In this document: piece by piece, positions 8,525-34,056 of the stretch
How the letters are laid out: each line of letters opens with the position of its first letter
Position numbering within the stretch: position 1 is the stretch's first letter
Source of the DNA: Constantimarinum furrinae
Lineage (GTDB): Bacteria > Bacteroidota > Bacteroidia > Flavobacteriales > Flavobacteriaceae
Length of the DNA stretch: 64,000 nucleotides
Assembly (NCBI RefSeq): GCF_014295415.1
Contig: NZ_CP052909.1
Location: forward strand, 992,001-1,056,000
Direction: 5' to 3'
Translations under genes and position numbers: made by a program
The notes under the pieces: generated by a model
What the model was told of the DNA's origin: nothing
The model's database searches: none
The model's input: only the letters and a program-made list of their open reading frames with translations

Positions 8525-10087
8525 TCAGCCCTTTTGAATTTTTAGCTTCATCCCCGGTTTCAATTTGTTACTACTAATATCGTTCCATTTTTTGATATTT
8601 TCCACCGTAACTCCAGGAAATTTTTGCGAAATGCTCCATAGCGAGTCTCCGCTTTTTACTGTGTAGGTCTTTACATTTTCAGAGGATGTCGTTGCTGTAG
8701 AGGTGTTAGCACTTGATCTGCCGGGGTTTTTTGGATGAATTGTGAGTCGCTGTCCAATTTTTAATCTATTGCTCCTCAGATTATTCCATCGCTTAATCTG
8801 ATTTACCGTAACTCCGTATTTGTCGGCAATCTTTCCAAGATAATCGCCACTCCGTACCCGATATCTTATGCGATTAGACGATTCAAAAAACTGTGGCAAT
8901 GCCTTTTCTCTATCGTTAAATTCTTTATCGGCAAATGCGTAGATCGCCTCTTCATTGGCCACAAACTTGCCTATGGCGTGAAGTGGAAGTCGCAACACGT
9001 AATTCTCATCGGCAATAAACGGAATGATCCCAAGTTTGTATGAAGGATTCAGGAATTTCAATTCTGAAACATCGGTATTGGTTACCTTAGCCACCTGATC
9101 GAGGCTAATCATTTTCTTTACTCGAACCGTATCGGTTGCGATATATGGAAATTGGGGTCCGTTACTTTTAAAACCGTGCTCTTCGGCATATTCAAAAATG
9201 TACATGGTTGCCAGGAACGCAGGTAAATATCCTGCTGTTTCACGTGGAAGGTGATGCCTTATGTTCCAGTAGTTGGTATAGCCTCCTGCACGTCGTAGGG
9301 CTTTTGAAACATTACCCGGGCCGGAGTTATACGCTGCAAGGGCCAGATCCCAATCATCAAGACTGTTATAGAGACTTTTCAAGTATTTACATGCCGCTTC
9401 GGTGGCGAGGATAGGGTCCGATCGCTCATCAACATAACTGCTTACTTCGAGACCAAACATTTTTCCCGTTGCATACATAAACTGCCAAAGCCCTGTAGCT
9501 CCTACTCTGGAGCGTGCCTGTGGGTCTAATGCCGATTCCACAATGGCAAGATATTTTAGTTCCAGAGGAAGATTGTGCCGGTCTAAGGCCTCTTCGAACA
9601 TTGGGAAATAATAATCGCTTAACGCCATAAGCCTCCCCATGGTTGTTCTTCTGTTTTTGAGATATTGACGAATCACACTTTCGAGAGAAGGGTTGTATTC
9701 TACATTAAATGGAGTCTTGGCGTTGAGTTTTGCGAGTCGTTCTTTGAGTACTTCGGTAGGCAATTCTTCATACTCCAAAGGTTCATATTCCTGAGTGGTG
9801 ATTGTTCCGTACACCTCTTCGAATAATTCGTTATTGTACAACTGACTTAGCCATAGACTGTCTACCTTCTGAGCTTTCGAAATATCGGTGAGGTCGAAGA
9901 CGAGTGTGTCCTTGACGGTTGTTTTTACTACGGTTTTGGGAAATTCATCAGAAACACTCGTAACTGCGATAGAATCGATGATCCTCACCTTTTTCATCGG
10001 TAACGAATCCATATTCTTGCCGGGTTTCTGCGCAACAATCACGCCGCAGATCAGCAAACATAACAGAGAGAATACGTAGGTCTTCAT
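8525..10087 (-). CDS. MltD-like lytic transglycosylase with two LysM domains
   Basis: Periplasmic murein lyase that cleaves the glycan strand between MurNAc and GlcNAc. Start chosen at ATG 10087, giving a clean signal peptide (MKTYVFSLLCLLICGVIVAQ) and 520 residues; an upstream in-frame ATG at 10126 would bury the signal. The SLT domain spans about 145-290, with catalytic Glu184 in AIVESALDPQARS and the family GLWQFM and AYNSGPGNV motifs. Two LysM peptidoglycan-binding repeats (starting RYRVRSGDYLGKIA and KTYTVKSGDSLWSIS) form the C-terminus. Co-directional with the DUF4837 lipoprotein gene. Confidence 0.93.
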   Translation of the reverse strand: MKTYVFSLLCLLICGVIVAQKPGKNMDSLPMKKVRIIDSIAVTSVSDEFPKTVVKTTVKDTLVFDLTDISKAQKVDSLWLSQLYNNELFEEVYGTITTQEYEPLEYEELPTEVLKERLAKLNAKTPFNVEYNPSLESVIRQYLKNRRTTMGRLMALSDYYFPMFEEALDRHNLPLELKYLAIVESALDPQARSRVGATGLWQFMYATGKMFGLEVSSYVDERSDPILATEAACKYLKSLYNSLDDWDLALAAYNSGPGNVSKALRRAGGYTNYWNIRHHLPRETAGYLPAFLATMYIFEYAEEHGFKSNGPQFPYIATDTVRVKKMISLDQVAKVTNTDVSELKFLNPSYKLGIIPFIADENYVLRLPLHAIGKFVANEEAIYAFADKEFNDREKALPQFFESSNRIRYRVRSGDYLGKIADKYGVTVNQIKRWNNLRSNRLKIGQRLTIHPKNPGRSSANTSTATTSSENVKTYTVKSGDSLWSISQKFPGVTVENIKKWNDISSNKLKPGMKLKIQKG

Positions 10088-13614: not shown

Positions 13615-13630
13615 TGTTCCACGTGAAACA
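13615..13630. other. parS-like palindrome downstream of mnmG
   Basis: TGTTCCACGTGAAACA matches the widely conserved ParB-binding consensus TGTTTCACGTGAAACA at 15 of 16 positions. It lies in the 35-bp gap between mnmG and the methyltransferase gene. A partner site lies on the other side of mnmG at 15521-15536. ParB binding is inference from the consensus. Confidence 0.7.
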
Positions 13631-13636
13631 TTGTTA

Positions 13637-15508
13637 CTAACGTCCCATATACACTAATAGTACCGAAATGTCATTAGGAGAAACGCCGCTTATTCTCGAG
13701 GCCTGTGAGACCGTCGCAGGTTGAATGGCAGATAACTTTTCCTTGGCTTCAAACGATAAGGATTTTAAGCGGGAATAATCGAAATTAACCGGGATCTTTA
13801 TTCCTTCCAAACGATTCAGTTTATCTGCATTGTTCTTTTCCTTTTCAATATATCCGGCGTATTTCACCTGAATCTCTGCCTGTGTCAATACTTCATGGTC
13901 GATATTATTAACCTGAATAAATTCTTCCACAGCACTCAGCTTTCTCATGTCGTCCATGCCTATCTCCGGACGAGAAAAAACCTTGAACATCTTATCACTT
14001 TGCTTTACCGAAGCCGAATTATTTGATTCCAGAATAGGATTAATCTCCTCGGGTTGAACACTGGTTTCCTTAAAGAAATTCACAAATTTTTGAGCGCTTT
14101 CTTTCTTTTCCTCCATCTTTTTTAGCCGTTCGTCACTTGCCAAACCAATGGCATGCGATCTTGGTGTTAAACGAAAATCGGCATTATCTTGCCGAAGCAG
14201 CGTTCGGTATTCGGCACGGGAGGTAAACATTCTATAAGGCTCTTCTGTTCCCTTTGTAATTAGATCATCTATAAGCACTCCAATATAGGCTTCATTGCGT
14301 TGAAGAATAAAAGGGTCTTGCTCCTTAACCTTTAAATGTGCATTAATCCCGGCCATCAAGCCTTGTGAAGCAGCTTCTTCATAACCGGTGGTACCGTTTA
14401 TCTGGCCCGCAAAGAATAAGCCTGAAACCAATTTGGTTTCCAGAGTATGCTTTAACTGTGTTGGAGGAAAATAATCATATTCTATAGCGTATCCGGGCCT
14501 AAAAAACTTTACATTTTCAAATCCCTCCACTTGCTTCAAGGCTTTAAACTGAACTTCCTCCGGAAGTGATGTAGAAAACCCATTGATGTAATACTCTACC
14601 GTATTCCATCCTTCAGGTTCAACAAAGAGCTGATGGCGGTCTTTATCGGCAAAGCGATTGATCTTATCTTCTATTGAGGGACAATATCTTGGCCCAATAC
14701 TTTGTATTGCTCCGTTAAACATGGGAGAACGATCAAACCCTTCTTTCAGCATTTCATGAACCAACGGACTCGTATAGCTCATATGACAATCACGCTGTTG
14801 TGTGAGCGGTTTCGTACTATCAGAATAAGAAAACTTTTCAGGATGCTCATCACCGGGCTGCACGACCATTTTTGAAAAATCTAAAGATCTTCCATCTACT
14901 CTGGGTGGTGTTCCGGTTTTCATCCTTCCCGAATCAAAACCAAGATCAACTAGATCCTTAGTAATTCCGGTAGCAGCCTTTTCACCGGCTCTACCACCAC
15001 CAAACTGTTTCTCTCCTATATGGATCAATCCATTCAAAAAGGTACCATTGGTAAGAACGACTGTTTTACCTTTAATTTCGAGTCCGAGGGAAGTTTTTAC
15101 TCCCACGATCCGATCTCCTTCTACCATAATTCCGGCTACCATTTCCTGATAGAAATAGAGATTCTTAGTTTGCTCGAGCATCAATCGCCATTCTTCCGAA
15201 AAACGCATTCGATCACTCTGAACCCTTGGGCTCCACATAGCCGGCCCTTTGGATTTATTCAGCATCTTAAACTGAATCGCAGTCTTGTCTGAAATTATTC
15301 CGCTGTACCCTCCTAGGGCATCAATTTCACGGACGATCTGCCCTTTAGCAATCCCCCCCATGGCGGGATTACAGGACATCTGACCGATATTCTGAAGATT
15401 CATGGTGATAAGCAAGGTGCTTGACCCCATATTCGCCGCGGCGGCGGCGGCTTCAGATCCGGCATGACCTGCTCCAACAACGATTACATCATATTCCTTT
15501 TCAAACAT
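13637..15508 (-). CDS. mnmG: tRNA uridine-5-carboxymethylaminomethyl(34) synthesis enzyme MnmG
   Basis: With MnmE, adds the carboxymethylaminomethyl group to U34 of tRNAs reading split codon boxes; FAD and folate dependent. Start chosen at ATG 15508 (623 residues, family norm), giving MFEKEYDVIVVGAGHAGSEAA with the FAD GxGxxG. An in-frame ATG at 15541 would add 11 residues encoded by the parS palindrome and is unlike the family. Conserved SCNPAMGGIAKGQIVREIDALGG near 47 and the GEKQFGGGR block near 176 are present. A -7 box lies at 15558-15565. The gene is flanked on both sides by parS-like sites. Confidence 0.96.
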   Translation of the reverse strand: MFEKEYDVIVVGAGHAGSEAAAAAANMGSSTLLITMNLQNIGQMSCNPAMGGIAKGQIVREIDALGGYSGIISDKTAIQFKMLNKSKGPAMWSPRVQSDRMRFSEEWRLMLEQTKNLYFYQEMVAGIMVEGDRIVGVKTSLGLEIKGKTVVLTNGTFLNGLIHIGEKQFGGGRAGEKAATGITKDLVDLGFDSGRMKTGTPPRVDGRSLDFSKMVVQPGDEHPEKFSYSDSTKPLTQQRDCHMSYTSPLVHEMLKEGFDRSPMFNGAIQSIGPRYCPSIEDKINRFADKDRHQLFVEPEGWNTVEYYINGFSTSLPEEVQFKALKQVEGFENVKFFRPGYAIEYDYFPPTQLKHTLETKLVSGLFFAGQINGTTGYEEAASQGLMAGINAHLKVKEQDPFILQRNEAYIGVLIDDLITKGTEEPYRMFTSRAEYRTLLRQDNADFRLTPRSHAIGLASDERLKKMEEKKESAQKFVNFFKETSVQPEEINPILESNNSASVKQSDKMFKVFSRPEIGMDDMRKLSAVEEFIQVNNIDHEVLTQAEIQVKYAGYIEKEKNNADKLNRLEGIKIPVNFDYSRLKSLSFEAKEKLSAIQPATVSQASRISGVSPNDISVLLVYMGR

Positions 15509-15520
15509 AATTCTAGGTAA

Positions 15521-15536
15521 TGTTCCACGTGGAACA
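15521..15536. other. parS-like perfect palindrome in the mnmG leader
   Basis: TGTTCCACGTGGAACA is a perfect 16-bp palindrome that differs from the parS consensus TGTTTCACGTGAAACA at two symmetric positions (14 of 16). It lies between the mnmG promoter box and the preferred start codon, so it would be in the 5' untranslated leader. Confidence 0.68.
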
Positions 15537-15557
15537 AACATTTAGTTTTTAGGGCTG

Positions 15558-19639: not shown

Positions 19640-19669
19640 TTGATATGCCCACATAGAATTGTACCTTTG
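19640..19669 (+). promoter_or_regulatory. gltX promoter (TTG-N19-TACCTTTG)
   Basis: TTG at 19640-19642, exactly 19 nt, then TACCTTTG at 19662-19669: a complete Bacteroidota sigma-A-type promoter. It ends 25 bases before the preferred gltX ATG and supports that start over the upstream in-frame start at 19659, which falls inside the promoter. Confidence 0.75.
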
Positions 19670-19694
19670 TGCTTTCATCATAAAGAGAAAATCT

Positions 19695-21206
19695 ATGTCT
19701 CAAAAAGTGCGGGTCCGGTTTGCACCCAGCCCTACAGGACCATTACATATTGGCGGTGTTCGAACGGCTTTATTCAATTATCTGTTTGCTAAAAAGAACG
19801 GAGGAGATTTTGTGCTTCGTATTGAAGATACAGATCAGACCCGTTATGTGAAAGGCGCCGAAGAATACATTTCCGAATCCCTTAACTGGCTCAACATTCC
19901 TTACGACGAAGGCCCGGGGAAGGAAAAGGGCTACGGACCATACCGACAAAGCGAGCGCAAAGAGCTATATAAAGAATACGCCGATACCCTTATTGCCAAC
20001 GGAAATGCCTACTACGCCTTCGATACTTCAGAAGAACTGGACGCACACCGGAAAGACCATGAGGAAAACGGCAAAACATTTATCTACAACTGGCACAACC
20101 GCAATAAATTAAAGAACTCTCTTTCGCTTTCCGAAACGGAAGTCAAGCAAAGGCTGGAGAGCGGAGCTGATTATGTGATACGCTTTAAGACCCCTGAAAA
20201 TGAAACCTTGCAATTACAGGATATCATTCGCGGGGATATACTCATAGATACTTCTGTTTTGGATGATAAGGTGCTTTTTAAAAGTGACGGCATGCCTACT
20301 TATCATCTGGCGAATATTGTGGATGATCATCTAATGGAGATCACTCATGTGATCCGAGGGGAAGAATGGCTGCCTTCGCTTCCGCTTCATGTTCTTTTGT
20401 ATCGTGCTTTTGAATGGAAAGCACCCGAGTTTGCGCACCTCCCTCTCATCATGAAGCCGGTTGGGAAAGGAAAACTCAGTAAACGCGATGGTGATAAGAT
20501 GGGCTTTCCGGTTTTTCCGTTAAAATGGAAAACTGCTGAAGGCGATATTTATTCAGGATACAGAGAAGACGGATATTTGCCGGAAGCCGTTGTGAACATG
20601 TTGGCGCTCCTGGGTTGGAATCCCGGAACAGAGCAGGAGATCTTCGATTTGGCCGATCTTACACAACAGTTCGACCTGGATCGTGTAAACAAATCGGGAG
20701 CACGCTTCGACCCGGAAAAAGCAAAGTGGTTTCAGCATCATTATCTTCAGCAACAAAGTGATGTGGATATCGCTGCTAAATTTTCGTTATTCTTAAAGGA
20801 CAAAGGAATTGAGCCGGGACCTCATCTGGTTCCAATAGTTTCTAGTTTAAAGGAAAGAGCAACTTTTGTTGAAGATCTGTGGGAGCAGGGAAGCTTCTTT
20901 TTTGAGCGCCCCAATTCCTATGATGAAAAGGCTTCAAAAAAAGCGTTTAAGGAGGATACACCACAGCTTTTACAAGAGGTGATTCGATTAATGAGTAGTA
21001 CAGATGAATTTACCTCCCCTGTGCTTTCAGATAAAATTAAGGGATGGATAACCGCTCAGGACATCGGATTCGGAAAGGTCATGATGCCCTTAAGACTCTC
21101 TTTGGTAGGTGAAATGAAAGGTCCCGATGTATTTGAGATCGCGGCGCTTCTAGGCAAGGAAGAAACCGTAAAAAGACTCGAAAATGCTATAGCCTCAATG
21201 AACTAA
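19695..21206 (+). CDS. gltX: Glutamate--tRNA ligase
   Basis: Charges tRNA-Glu with glutamate, a class I synthetase. From ATG 19695 it has 503 residues and starts MSQKVRVRFAPSPTGPLHIGG with the HIGH motif (HIGG variant) near 18. The KMSKS equivalent reads KLSKRDG near 262. Length is typical. Its stop codon overlaps the stop of the convergent outer-membrane gene (CTAA, 4 nt), so no terminator separates them. glnS also lies in this window, so Gln-tRNA is made directly rather than only by transamidation. Confidence 0.97.
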   Translation: MSQKVRVRFAPSPTGPLHIGGVRTALFNYLFAKKNGGDFVLRIEDTDQTRYVKGAEEYISESLNWLNIPYDEGPGKEKGYGPYRQSERKELYKEYADTLIANGNAYYAFDTSEELDAHRKDHEENGKTFIYNWHNRNKLKNSLSLSETEVKQRLESGADYVIRFKTPENETLQLQDIIRGDILIDTSVLDDKVLFKSDGMPTYHLANIVDDHLMEITHVIRGEEWLPSLPLHVLLYRAFEWKAPEFAHLPLIMKPVGKGKLSKRDGDKMGFPVFPLKWKTAEGDIYSGYREDGYLPEAVVNMLALLGWNPGTEQEIFDLADLTQQFDLDRVNKSGARFDPEKAKWFQHHYLQQQSDVDIAAKFSLFLKDKGIEPGPHLVPIVSSLKERATFVEDLWEQGSFFFERPNSYDEKASKKAFKEDTPQLLQEVIRLMSSTDEFTSPVLSDKIKGWITAQDIGFGKVMMPLRLSLVGEMKGPDVFEIAALLGKEETVKRLENAIASMN

Positions 21207-24168: not shown

Positions 24169-25659
24169 TTAATGTTTTGGTAAATCGTCTAGTTCAATTC
24201 CCAAAATTTCCAATAGTCGGTAAAAAATGACATCGGTGGTAATGGCTAAAAATTGTTCTTCGGAAAGGGCTACAGTTAGCTCGGGATATTTTGCCAGAAA
24301 CGCATCTGAAAGCCAGATCATATACGCAGGGTTTTTAAGCGCTTCTCCTTCCTGCGCATGAAGCCATTTGCCGTCTTCTCCCAGCAGTTCACCATGATCT
24401 GAAACATAGACCATGGCTGAAGGTATTTCTTCGGTCTTTAAGCGGGAAATCACTTCAGCTAAAAAATGATCCAGATACAAAATGGTGTTGTCGTAAGAAT
24501 TGATCAGCTGCTCATTTGATAGCGACGGAATGTACTTACTGTCAATCACCGGTCGGAATTTGCGATGAATATCGGTGTATCTGTTCTCATACCACCAGTG
24601 ACTTCCAATCATATGCAACGTAATGAGTTGCTTAGGGTTAAGTCGCAGCACCGAATCCAGCAACGGCAGCATAGCCTCGTCCCGCTTTTTATCAAAGCTG
24701 AACTCAGATTTATACTTATCGACCAATACCTGTTCCTTATTGGTTTCTACTATAGGGGAAAAGGATTTCTCTACGGTCTGGTTAGCGATCCATGTGGTGT
24801 GGAAACCCGCCTTATTGGCAACAGTATATACCGAAAGAAATTCCCTCGTACTGTCTTCCAAATTCTCGTCTGTAAGGAGCTGCGGAACGCTGGTGGCGGT
24901 ATAGGTCTTGCTGGTAAAAAGCCCCGGATAACTAATTAAATTGCGTTCTTCTGAAAGTCTGGGCGTGGTGTTCCGCTCATAACCGTTGAGCCCCAGATGA
25001 TCTGCCCGAACGGTTTCACCAAGCACAAAAACTACTTTTAAAGAGTCGGTTGCTGTTGTCACTGACGGAATATCCTTCTTTAATTGAAGGGAAGGTGTTT
25101 CAGAATAGGTTTTTATTCCGTAGACCACATTATAGGGCAAACGATTCTTTAAACTTCCCGGGCGCTTCTGTTCAAGAACAAAGAACAGACTCATACAAAG
25201 TAATGCCGGAATTATAAAATATTTAAATCCATGAGTTCTATTCAGTCTGCTATGCCACTTCAGAATACATAATAACACAATTAAAGCCAGCAGAAAAAAC
25301 AATAGATAGGGCAGCGTGATCACATCCATGGCAATGTCTGCCTTGGTTTCAAAGACCGAATGAATAAGCGCCGGAGTAACTGAAACATCCTGAGAATATG
25401 CCCAAAACGAAAAGCAACAATAGCCTAAAAACAATATGGAAAATACGATTCGAAATATCCACTTATTTAAGCTAAGAACATAAAGAAATCCAGCAAGCGT
25501 AGTTTGAAGTGCACATAAATGCAAAAAGTAGATGACAGTATCTTTGGCCCCTTGTAACGGAGTGTGATAATAAGAAGCGCCGGTTATAAATAACACCACT
25601 GCCAGATTAAGGAAGAGGTGAAAATAAAGTAACGGTTTAAGATTTTTTAGTTTTTCCAT
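24169..25659 (-). CDS. Phosphoethanolamine transferase (EptA-like, sulfatase superfamily)
   Basis: Inner-membrane enzyme family that moves phosphoethanolamine from phosphatidylethanolamine to lipid A or other glycans on the periplasmic side. Start at ATG 25659 gives 496 residues; a TTG at 25686 would extend it. Several N-terminal membrane helices (first about 170 residues) precede the catalytic alkaline-phosphatase-like domain, whose nucleophile motif is FVLGETVRADHLGLNGY. The zinc-site region YVSDHGELLGEDGKWLHA lies near the C-terminus. It overlaps the end of the acyltransferase gene by 23 nt, a coupled surface-modification pair. The acceptor is unknown. Confidence 0.88.
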   Translation of the reverse strand: MEKLKNLKPLLYFHLFLNLAVVLFITGASYYHTPLQGAKDTVIYFLHLCALQTTLAGFLYVLSLNKWIFRIVFSILFLGYCCFSFWAYSQDVSVTPALIHSVFETKADIAMDVITLPYLLFFLLALIVLLCILKWHSRLNRTHGFKYFIIPALLCMSLFFVLEQKRPGSLKNRLPYNVVYGIKTYSETPSLQLKKDIPSVTTATDSLKVVFVLGETVRADHLGLNGYERNTTPRLSEERNLISYPGLFTSKTYTATSVPQLLTDENLEDSTREFLSVYTVANKAGFHTTWIANQTVEKSFSPIVETNKEQVLVDKYKSEFSFDKKRDEAMLPLLDSVLRLNPKQLITLHMIGSHWWYENRYTDIHRKFRPVIDSKYIPSLSNEQLINSYDNTILYLDHFLAEVISRLKTEEIPSAMVYVSDHGELLGEDGKWLHAQEGEALKNPAYMIWLSDAFLAKYPELTVALSEEQFLAITTDVIFYRLLEILGIELDDLPKH

Positions 25660-26629
25660 CCAAAATTGGAGCGTATTTATTGACAAGCCATATCACAGGA
25701 ATCACCATGATAATCTGAATTATAGAAAGTATAAGTTTTTCAATTTCAGAAAAATTAAAGACGGTCACACCCAGAATCAACATTAATGCAAGCTTAATTA
25801 CTGTAAGCATCCTCGAATGCGTAGCCAACAACACTATGGTGTGCCTTCCCAAATACCCTAAAAATTTAAATACCGGAACAAGTTTAAAGAAGAGGATATA
25901 AGCAAAAGATCCTGTGAGTCCACTAATGAAGAACAGCAGTTCATTGCCATAGATGGACCGGTACATATCGGGTTTTGTGGTATTGTAATAAAAGGCTGCC
26001 AGATGTATCACAAAGAGAATCGTCATTAAGGAGAGCGCCTTAAATTGAGAAATTCGAACCAATTGTTCTTTTAAAACATATCCTATACCGTAGAAGCCCA
26101 TGGCTACAAGCGCAACATCAATACTCCAGGGAAGGTGAATGTCTGTAAACACCGCCCACAGAAAGCCCCCTGTAACCAGCACCGTAAATACTATGGCCGC
26201 CAGTATATTATTCTTAATTTTTCTAATTCCTGAAAAGAATAAAAATACCAAAAAAATACACGGCAGAAACCACATGGGGATACCCCAATCCATATATTCG
26301 GGGCCACCTTGGGCATAAAATATCCCTATAAAATTATCCAATGGTGAAAGCGCTACTGTCGCACTTTCTCCATACTTCCGGCCCGCGAAGAACCAAAAAA
26401 GAAACAGCGCTGTGGCCCAGAAAAAATAAGGAATAAGTATCATTTTTGCCCTGCGTTTCACCGTGTTGATAGTGACCTCCTTCGGGTGAAACAATCCGGC
26501 TATCAAAAAGAACAATGGAACGTGAAAGCTGTATATATATGGCTCGTTTACCGGAAAGTTGTGACCGTAAACCACCAGGAATATCGATAATCCCCGTGCC
26601 TGGTCGATCCAATCCAGTCGTTTTGCCAT
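25637..26629 (-). CDS. Acyltransferase family 3 membrane protein
   Basis: Integral membrane O-acyltransferase family (OafA/NodX-like) that acylates sugars or peptidoglycan at the envelope. The 330-residue protein has the family opening RLDWIDQARGLSIFLVVYGHN, in which an N-terminal helix carries the conserved His. About ten membrane segments follow. It ends 2 nt upstream of nothing functional but overlaps the phosphoethanolamine transferase start by 23 nt, and its start lies 1 nt after the glnS stop. The glnS-acyltransferase-transferase order suggests one transcript. The acceptor cannot be read from sequence. Confidence 0.85.
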   Translation of the reverse strand: MAKRLDWIDQARGLSIFLVVYGHNFPVNEPYIYSFHVPLFFLIAGLFHPKEVTINTVKRRAKMILIPYFFWATALFLFWFFAGRKYGESATVALSPLDNFIGIFYAQGGPEYMDWGIPMWFLPCIFLVFLFFSGIRKIKNNILAAIVFTVLVTGGFLWAVFTDIHLPWSIDVALVAMGFYGIGYVLKEQLVRISQFKALSLMTILFVIHLAAFYYNTTKPDMYRSIYGNELLFFISGLTGSFAYILFFKLVPVFKFLGYLGRHTIVLLATHSRMLTVIKLALMLILGVTVFNFSEIEKLILSIIQIIMVIPVIWLVNKYAPILDGKTKKS

Positions 26630-29619: not shown

Positions 29620-31833
29620 CTATACCCTGGGTTGATATTCATTTTGATGACCCAACATTATGAAATCGAGATGTTTCTTAACAAGATCTGCATTTTTCAC
29701 TTTTACATATACTTCATCACCCAACTGATACACATTCTTGGATTTAGAACCTACCACGGCATATTCTTCCCTGTCGAACACATAATGATCATCCTTCAGG
29801 TCTTGCAATCGCACCATACCTTCACACTTATTCGAAATAATTTCGACATAAACACCCCATTCGGTCACCCCGGAGATCACTCCTAAAAAGTCCTGATCTT
29901 CATGATCTTTCATATATTTCACCTGCATATACTTGATGCTGTCGCGCTCGGCATTGGAAGCCAAGTTTTCCATATCACTGGAGTGGCTGCAGCGCTCCTC
30001 ATAAAGCTCTTCCTTTGCAGAGGGTTTTCCATCCAGATACTTTTGTAACAGTCTATGGACCATTACATCGGGATAACGTCTAATGGGTGAAGTAAAATGA
30101 GTGTAATAGTCGAATGCGAGCCCGTAATGGCCAATATTATGAATAGTGTAAATCGCCTTACTCATACTTCGTATTGCCAGGGTATCGACCAGATTTTGCT
30201 CCTTTTTCCCCTGAACATCGTGTAATAGTTTATTTAAAGAAGCAGCTGTGCTGTTTCTGTCCCGGGTGTTCAATTTATAACCGAATCGTTTAATAATGTT
30301 TTCCAGCGCAGCAATTTTCTCATCGTCAGGTTCGTCATGAACCCTGTACACAAAGGTTTTCTTCGGATTTTGCTTTCCAATAAACTCGGCGACGCTACGG
30401 TTGGCCAGCAACATAAATTCTTCAATGAGTTTATTCGCATCTTTACTTTCCTTGAAATACACTCCTTCCGGGTTATTTTGCTCATCCAAAATGAACTTAA
30501 CTTCTACCTTGTCAAAGGATATGGCTCCTTGACGCATTCTTTTTTTCCGAAGGATCTTAGCCAGTCGGTCCATTTCCAGAATGGCCCGGGCAATTGCCGG
30601 ATCTACCCTGTATGTCTTTCCGGTGATTGAAATTTGAGATGGCATCTCATGACTTTCAGCTTGAGGATTCTCTATAACATATTGCGCTTCTTCATAGGCA
30701 AATCGAGCATCACTGTAAGTAACCGTTCTTCCAAACCACTTATTAACAACTTCAGCATTATCGTTAATTTCGAATACCGCAGAAAATGTATATTTTTCCT
30801 CGTTAGGGCGTAATGAACAGGCATTATTGGACAGTATTTCAGGAAGCATGGGTACGACACGGTCTACCAGATAAACAGAAGTTGCTCTTTCGTACGCTTC
30901 ATCATCCAATACAGTTCCCGGTTTCAGGTAATGCGACACATCGGCAATATGAATTCCTATCTCATAATTTCCATTTTCTAGTTTTTCAAAAGACAAGGCA
31001 TCATCAAAATCCTTTGCGTCTTTTGGGTCTATGGTAAACGTGAGTGCTTTACGCATATCCCGTCTCTTTTTTATCTCAGCTTCCTGTATGGATGTATCAA
31101 GATTATTGGCGTATTCTTCCACCTCATGCGGAAACTCGTAGGGCAATCCGTATTGAGCAAGAATGGAATGGATCTCGGTATTGTGCTCACCCGGTTTTCC
31201 AAGGACCTTTATAACTTTTCCCATAGGCGACTCGGCATTATCTGCCCAGCCTTCCATGGCCACTAAAACTTTATCTCCGTCTTCAGCTTTTCCTATATTT
31301 CCCTTCGGAACAAAAATATCGGTATACATTTTAGCACTGCTACAATCTACAAAGGCAAAGTTTTCCATCACCTGGATCACTCCTACGAATTCTGTACGTT
31401 TTCTCTGAAGGATCTTAGTGATCTCTCCTTCCGTTTTTCCTTTCTTTTTGCGTTTAAAAACATAAACTTCCACCACATCGCCATGCAGTGCTTTATTGAG
31501 ATTCTTATTCTTAACAAAAATATCTTCGTCAAGATCATCCACAACGATGTATCCTTGTCCGCGTCCGGCAATATCCACTACACCGGTATAATAATTCTTT
31601 GAAGGAGCCAGAATGTACTTTCCTCGTTCAATTTCTTGTATACTTCCCTTTCCTTGTAATTTCTTAAGTGTTTTAATAATATGATTCCGACTACTTGCAT
31701 CATCCACACCAAGTTTGGCCGCGATCTGCTTATAGTTGAAAGGTTTTGAATGGTCTTTTCGAAGAATGTTTAATATACTAGTACTGTAGTCTGAAATGTT
31801 CTTTTTCTTCTTTGTTCTTTTATGTTGAGGCAT
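29620..31833 (-). CDS. rnr: Ribonuclease R
   Basis: Processive 3'-5' exoribonuclease (RNase II family) that degrades structured RNA. The 737-residue protein has an N-terminal winged-helix region, then two cold-shock domains (about 75-225). The RNB catalytic domain opens TIDPKDAKDFDDALSFE near 260, with the metal-binding Asp cluster, and includes the VHRLLQKYL region. A C-terminal S1 domain (about 655-735) starts DFLGVISGVTEWGVYVEI. All parts are intact. It is the last - strand gene before the strand switch at about 31.9 kb. Confidence 0.96.
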   Translation of the reverse strand: MPQHKRTKKKKNISDYSTSILNILRKDHSKPFNYKQIAAKLGVDDASSRNHIIKTLKKLQGKGSIQEIERGKYILAPSKNYYTGVVDIAGRGQGYIVVDDLDEDIFVKNKNLNKALHGDVVEVYVFKRKKKGKTEGEITKILQRKRTEFVGVIQVMENFAFVDCSSAKMYTDIFVPKGNIGKAEDGDKVLVAMEGWADNAESPMGKVIKVLGKPGEHNTEIHSILAQYGLPYEFPHEVEEYANNLDTSIQEAEIKKRRDMRKALTFTIDPKDAKDFDDALSFEKLENGNYEIGIHIADVSHYLKPGTVLDDEAYERATSVYLVDRVVPMLPEILSNNACSLRPNEEKYTFSAVFEINDNAEVVNKWFGRTVTYSDARFAYEEAQYVIENPQAESHEMPSQISITGKTYRVDPAIARAILEMDRLAKILRKKRMRQGAISFDKVEVKFILDEQNNPEGVYFKESKDANKLIEEFMLLANRSVAEFIGKQNPKKTFVYRVHDEPDDEKIAALENIIKRFGYKLNTRDRNSTAASLNKLLHDVQGKKEQNLVDTLAIRSMSKAIYTIHNIGHYGLAFDYYTHFTSPIRRYPDVMVHRLLQKYLDGKPSAKEELYEERCSHSSDMENLASNAERDSIKYMQVKYMKDHEDQDFLGVISGVTEWGVYVEIISNKCEGMVRLQDLKDDHYVFDREEYAVVGSKSKNVYQLGDEVYVKVKNADLVKKHLDFIMLGHQNEYQPRV

Positions 31834-31941
31834 GGTAATTTATTGATTCTTGTAAAAGTACGTTTTATAAAACAATAGTCGATTTATATTAGGAAAGTTT
31901 TAGTACCTTTAATTATAGGGTTTTATATCGAATATAAGCAA

Positions 31942-32181
31942 ATGGAAAATTTCAAAACCGTCGCTATCTTTACATATCCGAGCGATTATGCCGTATTGAG
32001 ATTATTGCTGGAACATGAACACATTCGTCATGTTTTTCAAAATGAAACCATGATAAGCGTCCTTCCGTTTCACTCCAATGCCATAGGGGGTATTCGTTTA
32101 AAAGTTCACGTCGACGATATTCTTAAAACCGAAAGGATCATCGCTAACTTGAATGATTCTGCAAACCTTAAGATCGTATAA
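31942..32181 (+). CDS. DUF2007 putative signal-transducing protein
   Basis: Function unknown. The 79-residue protein starts MENFKTVAIFTYPSDYAVLRLLLEHEHI and matches the DUF2007 pattern: a strand, then 'Y...DAxLLRxxLExxGI-like' helix, then the FQNETMI strand and a C-terminal helix with GIRLKVHVDD. No signal peptide or membrane helix. It is the first + strand gene right of rnr and borders the long AT-rich gap. Its family often sits beside unrelated core genes, so context says little. Confidence 0.8.
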   Translation: MENFKTVAIFTYPSDYAVLRLLLEHEHIRHVFQNETMISVLPFHSNAIGGIRLKVHVDDILKTERIIANLNDSANLKIV

Positions 32182-32702
32182 TTTTTTAGTTGTTAACACA
32201 TATATATACATCATTTTTCTTTTTTAAAATTTCTTAAAATAAAATGATGATGATGATAGGCTGTTGATATGTACAATAACTTTTTAAGCAGATGCTTTGA
32301 TATGTTACTTATCGCAATTTACTTGCGGCTTATTAACAGTGATATGCTATAAAAAACATCTGATAAATAAGGAATTGGTCAAATTCATTAACAACTGTCA
32401 ACAACTCGAAATAACACTATATTATTAATAAATTACAACTTTAATTTTGTTGGGAAATAAAGAAAGACGACTCATAATTTGAGGACAAATGAATACTTAA
32501 AAATTTGTTAAATACAATTAAAAGTTGCTATTGGAATTAAGAATTAATTCTCCAACTTTTTTTACGCATTTTACCAGTGTAAATATCAACACCTTTGTTA
32601 ACTAAAATGTAATGTACATATTAACAAATTATTAAAAAGCTTAGCTGCAATAAATTAATAACGCATCACTTGTATTTGTTATCTTTGTAAAAACGATCTG
32701 CT
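32182..32702. other. 521-bp AT-rich intergenic region, candidate replication origin
   Basis: The only gene-free stretch over 300 bp. GC is about 25% by hand count over 32221-32640, well below the flanking genes. Degenerate DnaA-box-like motifs (two mismatches to TTATCCACA on one strand or the other) are TTATTAACA at 32330-32338, ATATCAACA at 32583-32591 and TGTTGATAT at 32262-32270. It also holds TGTTAACAC at 32191 and a GAT-repeat at 32244-32256. It coincides with the switch from mostly - to mostly + genes. Its right end contains the rpiB promoter. Origin function is inference; dnaA is absent from the window. Confidence 0.45.
32680..32687 (+). promoter_or_regulatory. -7 promoter box for rpiB
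   Basis: TATCTTTG (TAnnTTTG match), 15 bases before the rpiB ATG; TTG upstream not well placed. Confidence 0.5.
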
Positions 32703-33134
32703 ATGAAAATCGCAATAGGAAACGACCACGCCGGCACCGACTATAAAAACACAATAACCAACTATCTTCGCAAGGAAGGTCACGAAGTGACTAATTATGG
32801 AACCGATAGTAATGAAAGTGTGGATTACCCAGATTTTGTACATCCTGTGGCTAAGGATGTTGAAAACAAAGCAGTAGATTTCGGTATTATTATCTGCGGA
32901 AGTGGAAACGGGGCAAATATGACAGCTAACAAGCATCAAAATGTTCGATCTGCGCTTTGCTGGACCAAAGAAATTACTGCATTAGCAAGAGAACACAACG
33001 ATGCCAACGTGCTTAGCATTCCCGCCCGATTTACAAGTGAACCTCAGGCTTTAGACATGGTCAAGACCTTTTTAAATACCGATTTCGAAGGCGGCCGCCA
33101 CCAAAGAAGGGTTGAAAAGATAGCCTGCTCATAA
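32703..33134 (+). CDS. rpiB: Ribose-5-phosphate isomerase B
   Basis: Interconverts ribose-5-phosphate and ribulose-5-phosphate in the pentose phosphate pathway. The 143-residue protein starts MKIAIGNDHAGTDYKNTI with the substrate-binding DHAG at 8-11. The active-site block IIICGSGNGANMTANKH (about 62-78) has the catalytic Cys, and the C-terminal GGRHQRRVEKI is also typical. Length matches RpiB. It is followed 10 nt later by the cation exporter and 2 nt after that by the GNAT gene, a likely three-gene operon. Confidence 0.96.
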   Translation: MKIAIGNDHAGTDYKNTITNYLRKEGHEVTNYGTDSNESVDYPDFVHPVAKDVENKAVDFGIIICGSGNGANMTANKHQNVRSALCWTKEITALAREHNDANVLSIPARFTSEPQALDMVKTFLNTDFEGGRHQRRVEKIACS

Positions 33135-33144
33135 CCCTTCCCCT

Positions 33145-34056
33145 ATGGCACATTCCCACTCCCATAACCATGATCATCACGATGTCAAGGGAAGGAATCT
33201 GTTGCTTACCATCGTACTTAATGTGATCATTACAGCCGCGCAGGTGGTTGGCGGACTTATCTCCGGAAGTCTTTCCCTGCTTTCAGATGCGTTGCATAAT
33301 TTTAGCGATGTATTATCTCTGGTAGTAAGTTATGTTGCCGATAAATTTTCTAAAAGAGAAGCATCATTCGATAAAACTTTTGGCTATAAACGCGCAGAGA
33401 TCCTGGCAGCGTTCGTAAATGCCGCGACACTTTTAATTGTTGCGGTTTATCTAATCTATGAAGCTATACTGCGATTTTTGGATCCTCAGACCATCGAAAG
33501 CGGACTGGTGATCTGGTTAGCTATATTGGGTATTGCAGCGAATGGATTCAGTGTTTTATTACTTAGGAAGGACAGTAAGGAAAATATGAACATGCGCTCC
33601 GCCTACCTTCATTTATTTACAGATATGTCTGCTTCGGTGGCTGTATTGATAGGCGGTTTATTGATGAAATATTTCGGGTGGTTTTGGGTAGATAGCTTAC
33701 TCACGGTATTGATAGCACTATACCTTATTTTTATGGGTTACGATCTGTTAAAAACATCTTTCAAAGTACTTATGTTATTTACTCCGGATGATATTAATCT
33801 GGAAAAGATACGAGATGCGATTTCGATCCACCCAAAGATCAAGAACGTACATCATATGCATATCTGGCAACTGAATGAAAAAGAAACCCACCTGGAAGCG
33901 CATATCGATTTTAGCGAAGACATTACCCTTTCAGAGTTTGATGCCATTCTAGACGAAGTTGAAGCAATGCTGCATGAAAAATTTGAGATAAATCACGTGA
34001 ATATTCAACCCGAATATCAAAAGGATGATGCTAAGGACATCATAGTGCAGGATTAA
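33145..34056 (+). CDS. Cation diffusion facilitator transporter (zinc/cobalt/cadmium efflux)
   Basis: Proton-coupled metal exporter of the CDF family in the inner membrane. The 303-residue protein has a His-rich N-terminus (AHSHSHNHDHHD). Six membrane segments are predicted, including the metal-binding SLSLLSDALHNFSDVLSL (about 46-63) and the second-site HLFTDMSASV near 153. A cytoplasmic ferredoxin-like C-terminal domain contains HHMHIWQLNEKETHLEAHI. Substrate is most likely Zn2+ by similarity to CzcD; Co or Cd are possible. Middle gene of rpiB-CDF-GNAT. Confidence 0.93.
   Translation: MAHSHSHNHDHHDVKGRNLLLTIVLNVIITAAQVVGGLISGSLSLLSDALHNFSDVLSLVVSYVADKFSKREASFDKTFGYKRAEILAAFVNAATLLIVAVYLIYEAILRFLDPQTIESGLVIWLAILGIAANGFSVLLLRKDSKENMNMRSAYLHLFTDMSASVAVLIGGLLMKYFGWFWVDSLLTVLIALYLIFMGYDLLKTSFKVLMLFTPDDINLEKIRDAISIHPKIKNVHHMHIWQLNEKETHLEAHIDFSEDITLSEFDAILDEVEAMLHEKFEINHVNIQPEYQKDDAKDIIVQD

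Follow-up and report, generated by a model that had tools for sequence, protein, structure and literature searches.

A gap between rnr and rpiB as the probable replication origin of Constantimarinum furrinae, with a conserved module resembling a DnaA-trio unwinding system

Where does the chromosome of Constantimarinum furrinae start to replicate? An earlier note on a stretch of 64,000 nucleotides (the window; bases 992001–1056000 of the single source contig of 2,987,299 bp) had placed the replication origin in or close by one intergenic gap, at 1,024,182–1,024,702 in genome coordinates. Our analysis supports this proposal by strand skew, parS, a cluster of box-like sites and a conserved module, and we conclude that the gap is very probably the chromosomal origin (oriC). 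The gap, its neighbours and its least stable part are the following (window coordinates).

32182–32702, no strand: candidate oriC, the intergenic gap between a 79-aa ORF/rnr and rpiB (inside the 95% skew interval)
29620–31833, minus strand: rnr (ribonuclease R), left neighbour (TIGR02063, 745.1 bits)
31942–32181, plus strand: 79-aa ORF, labelled DUF2007 in the earlier note, a label that Pfam does not confirm
32703–33134, plus strand: rpiB, right neighbour (TIGR01120, 143.3 bits)
32201–32242, no strand: AT-rich tract, probable start of duplex unwinding (position 32201 begins the window's second least stable 40-mer)

The gap had been described as AT-rich and 521 bp long, and we measured 521 bp and 24.6% GC. 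By nearest-neighbour energy, position 32162 begins the least stable 500 bp of the window, which overlap the gap, and this instability suggests that the gap holds the AT-rich unwinding element expected of an oriC. The DUF2007 label of the 79-aa ORF had to be given up, as no Pfam match was obtained at E ≤ 1. The closest named relatives of the RpiB protein are Flavobacteriaceae, e.g. Ulvibacter litoralis (87%), which points to this family for the window. Conservation of the order rnr–gap–rpiB in relatives had been set as a check, and the order was found conserved: rpiB has an rnr match next to it in 26 of 30 short loci and in 19 of 20 longer loci, some with an extra ORF in between.

A switch of GC skew at the gap was another check set beforehand. 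The raw cumulative GC skew (10-kb bins) had near-equal minima at 1.03–1.04 and 1.22–1.23 Mb, ∼0.19 Mb apart, and a top near 2.40–2.45 Mb (50-kb sampling). The two minima and the blurred curve trace to the many minus-strand genes right of the origin. As minus-strand coding at 1.05–1.33 Mb blurred the raw curve, we dropped it as an origin locator and fitted a coding-corrected model, in which the skew of a gene is set by its co-orientation with replication. The model used GC skew at the four-fold sites of 1104 ORFs (1.498 Mb sampled) and two free breakpoints. It placed the origin at 1.025–1.030 Mb and the terminus at 2.42–2.45 Mb (best coarse pair, 1.025 Mb with 2.425–2.45 Mb; 1.030 Mb on a finer grid). 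The gap falls inside the 95% profile of the origin breakpoint, 1.020–1.0575 Mb, and in 100 bootstraps with the terminus kept at 2.42–2.46 Mb the median was 1.030 Mb, the 95% range being 0.985–1.125 Mb. Hence, the corrected breakpoint coincides with the gap within resolution. AT skew was uninformative as an origin indicator.

With a dif pattern we observed two dif-like sites genome-wide, one at 2,429,936 (3 mismatches) and another such site at 1,688,852. The minus strand, which on the left arm is the leading strand, carries both 16S genes (24 kb and 2.594 Mb). The proposed switch of gene orientation at the gap did not survive: it is not sustained, the coding length at 1.05–1.33 Mb being mostly on the minus strand. 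Because the switch ends beyond the window, gene orientation is a weak argument for an origin, and we rejected it as evidence. The weak co-orientation near the origin at 1.05–1.33 Mb perhaps reflects an inversion. Genome positions 1,200,000–1,230,000 (L027 and its neighbours) form a 30-kb block without any plus-strand ORF of at least 120 codons, on the lagging strand of the right arm.

We fitted the skew breakpoint singly in ten genomes, C. furrinae and nine relatives. Three of the ten were uninformative (G023, G071 and G117). Among the seven informative genomes, the fit included the gap in four (G000, G021, G032 and G107) and excluded it in three, by −12 kb (G059), −20 kb (G061) and −56 kb (G034). 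The breakpoints of these three are all shifted towards parS, yet the conserved module described below sits in their gap. A leading/lagging strand switch, as expected of an oriC, is found here within the 95% profile, with deviations of 12–56 kb in three relatives. In a pooled fit of nine genomes, from which G023 was excluded because rnr and the module were not found near its rpiB, the best break was 4 kb left of rpiB, and the position of rpiB itself was 4.8 units worse. A break fixed at parS was 47.7 units worse than one fixed at rpiB, and a break 22 kb from parS beat any fixed distance from rpiB by 10.5 units. The point 22 kb from parS is ∼4 kb from the gap in C. furrinae, so that the two anchors are indistinguishable there.

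When 21 genomes were stacked, the skew of minus-strand genes left of rpiB was −0.02 to −0.09 in eight of ten one-kb bins (−0.22 and −0.30 in the others), and it was −0.13 to −0.36 in all eight bins with data from 1 kb right of rpiB. For plus-strand genes the values were −0.14 or lower left of rpiB and −0.12 and −0.01 in the first two bins on its right; further right these genes were sparse and mixed. Skew places the origin within some 20–40 kb, and the same region has the box-like cluster, the module, the linkage to parS and the AT-rich instability. Skew resolves no better than kilobases; the narrowing to the gap comes from the module. In the near-complete genome G023 (L112) parS lies 43 kb from rpiB, the module was not found and the skew is uninformative; perhaps its origin has changed.

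Next to the skew we considered parS and dnaA. The relevant features of the window, with two genes that enter the argument later, are as follows.

13615–13630, no strand: parS-like site TGTTCCACGTGAAACA (1 mismatch to TGTTCCACGTGGAACA)
15521–15536, no strand: parS-like site TGTTCCACGTGGAACA, a perfect palindrome (perfect match)
13637–15541, minus strand: mnmG (gidA), named with a predicted origin in two related genomes (TIGR00136, 839.9 bits)
19659–21206: gltX, inside the window

The parS-like sites reported 17–19 kb left of the gap were borne out. They sit at both ends of mnmG and are the only two sites in the whole genome with up to two mismatches to TGTTCCACGTGGAACA. We also observed a third, weaker site, TGTTTCACGTGGAAGG (window 9236–9251; 3 mismatches). 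A similar sequence, TGTTTCACGTGGAAGA, occurs a few kb past the parS pair in several relatives (G059, G040, G068, G106 and G322), and from this recurrence window 9236–9251 may be a conserved degenerate parS.

We compared parS and dnaA in 18 near-complete relatives of 1–8 contigs. The best parS-like sites were upstream of rpiB in all 18, at a distance of 6–63 kb in 17; G025 has a single site, across a contig end from rpiB. Extra sites with two mismatches were seen elsewhere in 6 of the 18, and a reversed control pattern had 1–2 matches in 8 of the 18. An origin-proximal parS, another mark of an oriC, is thus present in C. furrinae and likewise near rpiB in 18/18 relatives. The usual arrangement is a pair ∼2 kb apart, unlike that in one genus (g121; G322, G459, G287 and G432), where arrays of 7–8 parS-like sites occupy ∼0.4–1.0 kb.

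An oriC beside dnaA is common, not obligatory. The sole DnaA-family match in the genome is the gene from contig base 104, so that the absence of dnaA from the vicinity of the gap, raised earlier against an origin here, is true: the two are ∼1.02 Mb apart. This distance loses its force because the relatives also have their full-length dnaA match ∼0.8–1.9 Mb from rpiB, unlinked in 18/18; G021 has two additional weak partial matches, one of them ∼31 kb from rpiB. With parS near rpiB and dnaA far away in these 18 relatives, the parS–rpiB region is conserved without dnaA.

The earlier note had pointed to three DnaA-box-like nonamers, at 32262, 32330 and 32583. All three are present, each two mismatches from TTATCCACA, and yet they are not above chance, as the window has 232 matches to TTATCCACA with up to two mismatches versus 221.7 ± 13.5 in shuffles. 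A perfect TTATCCACA is absent from the gap, as had been said; the 1.5 Mb sampled has 20 perfect copies, never two of them within 521 bp. Being at chance level in the window, E. coli-type boxes were discarded as a yardstick.

We learned the box dialect from 43 gaps, including that of C. furrinae, after four duplicate loci and three loci without a gap had been dropped before motif counting. Against dinucleotide shuffles, TTATTAACA was observed in 30 of 43 gaps (2.75 expected), GTTATTAAC in 23 (0.85 expected) and TTATCAACA in 16 (1.02 expected). Because TTATTAACA-type sites, and not TTATCCACA, prevail in the gaps of relatives, the lack of a perfect box loses its force. The pattern NTRTYAACA has 7 occurrences in the gap and 239 in the 1.5 Mb sampled. 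Its densest cluster in the sample is the gap, with up to three per 521-bp window elsewhere. These seven sites, with zero TTATCCACA, are the putative DnaA boxes of the gap. The plus-strand matches are listed here.

32190–32198, plus strand: box-like TTGTTAACA, overlapping GTGTTAACA on the minus strand (dialect match)
32330–32338, plus strand: box-like TTATTAACA (dialect match; the 9-mer found in 30/43 gaps)
32395–32403, plus strand: box-like CTGTCAACA (dialect match)
32583–32591, plus strand: box-like ATATCAACA (dialect match; 2 mismatches from TTATCCACA)
32618–32626, plus strand: box-like ATATTAACA (dialect match)

The nonamer TTATTAACA has also been proposed as DnaA box in Mycoplasma hominis, an unrelated lineage, with two copies upstream of dnaA; the account of these boxes mentions no triplet module (PMC2751442).

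The gap contains a module that is conserved in the family. Its order is weak box, box, 4-nt spacer, five period-3 triplets and AT-rich tract, and its parts in the window are given below.

32216–32287, minus strand: conserved module of ∼70 bp, the putative origin core (profile and covariance model matches)
32271–32279, minus strand: upstream weak DnaA-box-like site TTATTGTAC (family form TTATnCCAn; profile columns 13–21; putative binding site)
32262–32270, minus strand: DnaA-box-like site ATATCAACA adjoining the triplets (commonest family form NTATTAACA; binding presumed)
32258–32261, minus strand: 4-nt spacer GCCT (third-base C 93% conserved, column 33)
32243–32257, minus strand: five period-3 triplets ATC ATC ATC ATC ATT, DnaA-trio-like (containing the GAT repeat)

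The GAT repeat noticed earlier is real and consists of four GAT at 32246–32257, inside the module. The consensus of 102 distinct module copies is AAAAAgTTATnccannTATtAACAnnCtATaATaAnCAtCATT, followed by T-rich and A-rich tracts, and the weak box TTATnCCAn has C at position 7 in 67 of the 102. Across the five triplets, A recurs at every third base of the box strand with frequencies of 1.00, 1.00, 0.90, 0.96 and 0.99, and the T that gives an opposite-strand A with 1.00, 0.98, 0.48, 0.65 and 0.82 (102 copies).

According to a published rule, a DnaA-box should lie within 16 bp of at least three opposite-strand NAN triplets (PMC8287927). If the identity of the box is assumed, at least three such triplets are present in 49 of the 102 distinct copies, and five in the window copy. 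In the NAN-giving frame the window copy reads 3′-TAG-5′ four times and 3′-TAA-5′ once, with no canonical 3′-GAT-5′ triplet; what the family conserves is A on the box strand. As in the basal unwinding system (BUS) with DnaA-trios of Bacillus subtilis (PMC8287927, PMC6669920), a short spacer comes right after the box(es) of the module, and a period-3 array and then an AT-rich tract come next, the order and orientation being constant. Unlike in Bacillus, the family array keeps the box-strand A (0.90–1.00 at the five positions) and not the opposite-strand middle A of every repeat. In the family consensus the canonical 3′-GAT-5′ fits the first triplet alone, the family boxes are mostly NTATTAACA and dnaA is not adjacent.

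The ts1–ts2–spacer–trios–AT-rich layout given for oriC2 of Helicobacter pylori (PMC8235120) also matches that of the family module. There, ts1 is described as a weak ATP-type box, TYATTCCWT, with C at position 7, and this C is common to the family form TTATnCCAn; the weak box of the window differs from it in having T at this position. The perfect triplets of H. pylori are 5′-CTA-3′ on the box strand, whereas those of the family are ATN. The module resembles a DnaA-trio unwinding system in which boxes and triplets are both altered. It reads like a basal unwinding system, and we do not class it among the canonical DnaA-trios.

We seeded the module profile by aligning the GAT-repeat region of six gaps, and it recruited 38 of 43 gaps at E < 0.01, all on one strand. 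A profile without the C. furrinae copy matched 32287–32216 at E 2.4e-12, the next best match in the 1.5 Mb sampled being at E 3. The first 50 loci represent 46 distinct genomes, and the module was observed in 43. The module-less L083, L093 and L112 had no rnr in the stretch examined; a whole-genome search found the module ∼2 kb upstream of rpiB in G073 and G106, the genomes of two of these three loci.

With a sequence-only covariance model made from 42 module copies, including that of C. furrinae, 106 of 120 family genomes had a module match at E ≤ 0.01. These include the 42 genomes used for training, so the independent figure is 64/78. In the whole C. furrinae genome the model, which includes this copy, gave a single match at E ≤ 0.01. 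A second, weak match was present in 7 of the 106, and the best match was weaker than E 1e-3 in 5. At E ≤ 0.01 the module was not found in 14 of the 120 family genomes, the near-complete G023 among them. Among 80 named loci, some of the same species as other family genomes counted, 68 had the module at E < 1e-3, always opposite to the strand of rpiB and at a median of 499 bp upstream. The other 12 comprised four with a weaker match in the same place, three with <300 bp of upstream sequence and five with nothing clear, including Myroides, Capnocytophaga and Avrilella. In a draw of 395 genomes from the phylum, searched with strict filters that lose weak matches, the module was found at E ≤ 0.01 in 36/41 family members and 8/354 others. 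Outside the family only G346 (1.1e-5) was below 1e-3, and the other seven look like chance.

The module lies 300–1000 bp before rpiB on the opposite strand in 96 of the 106 genomes (95 by script, plus G112). Ten modules are placed otherwise, among them those of G003, G055 and G035. The search for parS covered the other seven genomes, and module and parS were on one contig in 7/7. In G073, G106 and G002, rpiB is 2–3 kb and parS 13–20 kb from the module. In G078 (parS at 4 kb) and G057 (parS at 7 kb, module turned round), rpiB is on another contig. In G060, parS-like variants are 4 kb and rpiB 18 kb from the module, the parS-like pair being a variant with central T, just 37 bp apart. G079 has no RpiB match and has parS 35 kb from the module; there the reversed control gave 4 matches versus 2 real ones, the latter with 0 and 1 mismatch and 2.1 kb apart. 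Together with eight more genomes, the module–parS distance was 4–51 kb on one contig in 15/15 searched. In the four tested genomes that lack rpiB or have it at a distance, the module stays near parS, so that a role as rpiB promoter is improbable. The new content of this work is a family-wide module with altered boxes and triplets that is independent of dnaA and rpiB. G079, a near-complete family member without a detectable RpiB match, keeps both the module and the parS pair.

From these features we infer how initiation most likely proceeds. DnaA from a gene a megabase away would bind family-specific boxes (NTATYAACA and relatives) across the gap, and a DnaA oligomer would extend from the box pair at 32262–32279 over the adjacent five period-3 triplets. 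The oligomer would then open the AT-rich tract 32201–32242 and let helicase load, after which two forks would leave the gap. ParB on parS 17–19 kb away would segregate the sister origins.

The C. furrinae DnaA (L003:104-1534) reads RDHATVLHA where PDB chain 8btg_A, presumably from B. subtilis, reads RDHTTVIHA. By this alignment C. furrinae, the one genome from which this is known, appears to have Ala where E. coli has Thr435, in the DNA-recognition helix. In E. coli DnaA, Thr435 is described as a box-contacting residue (PMC7561715), and T435M as defective in box binding (PMC5742627). Flavobacteriaceae may have a distinct origin code, in which DnaA with the Thr435-equivalent Ala would read TTATTAACA-type boxes and its oligomer would be guided by triplets with an invariant box-strand adenine, so that the unwinding read-out would differ in strand or register from the Bacillus DnaA-trio. 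We offer this tentatively and regard it as rather doubtful.

Could the origin lie elsewhere in the same neighbourhood? Papers on the family have rotated genomes to dnaA or placed origins near mnmG/gltX. Ori-Finder put the origin at or next to mnmG in two flavobacteria (PMC11278836, PMC12843772), and a flavobacterial origin was assigned at gltX (PMC9867689); in PMC11278836 dnaA does not match the skew, and one figure legend labels mnmG as ter. These origins come from GC skew, and both genes are inside the window, in the same neighbourhood as the gap; the statements on the origin name a gene, and not the rnr–rpiB gap, the box dialect or the module. The origin might then be at or beside mnmG/parS or gltX and the gap merely origin-proximal, and the skew of three relatives does point between gap and parS. 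We consider this improbable, as an origin at parS carries the 47.7-unit penalty relative to rpiB in the nine-genome pool, the listed ORFs leave just 35 and 80 bp beside mnmG, and dialect boxes number at most three in every sampled 521-bp window outside the gap. Another reading is that the module regulates the divergent rnr/rpiB, as a promoter, an operator or a leader RNA, and is not an origin, which would suit its place between divergent genes, at a set distance before rpiB on the opposite strand in most genomes. It is very unlikely, given that the module is kept in G079 without an RpiB match, that in G060, G057 and G078 it lies 4–7 kb from parS with rpiB 18 kb off or on another contig, and that it is made of box-like repeats and a period-3 array. 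Also, no Rfam match was found in 31700–33200 at E ≤ 1.

That the skew minimum merely records an old origin or rearrangement history, the active origin being elsewhere, e.g. near dnaA, is hardly credible. The two near-equal minima of the raw skew and the weak strand bias of genes would agree with it, but the coding-corrected fit, the dif-like site at the inferred terminus, the occurrence of parS at this region alone and the unlinked dnaA of 18/18 relatives argue against it. Elsewhere in the literature, the skew switch of Blattabacterium, which is without dnaA, is placed in dapB (PMC2768785), and an Ori-Finder origin of Elizabethkingia has TTATCCACA-like boxes 1.9 Mb from dnaA (PMC8994065). In the papers searched we found no description of the rnr–rpiB gap as an origin or of the module, and predictions in DoriC, in supplements or in figures may overlap with it.

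With the rnr–rpiB gap as oriC, a single recognisable module of 57–70 bp would allow origin calling in most family genomes, drafts included, and would aid growth-rate (peak-to-trough) estimates, which need the true origin. It also makes the DnaA-trio model testable in a lineage with drifted box and triplet. Between gltX and the gap, at window 24169–26629, a lipid A phosphoethanolamine-transferase-like gene adjoins an acyltransferase-family gene.
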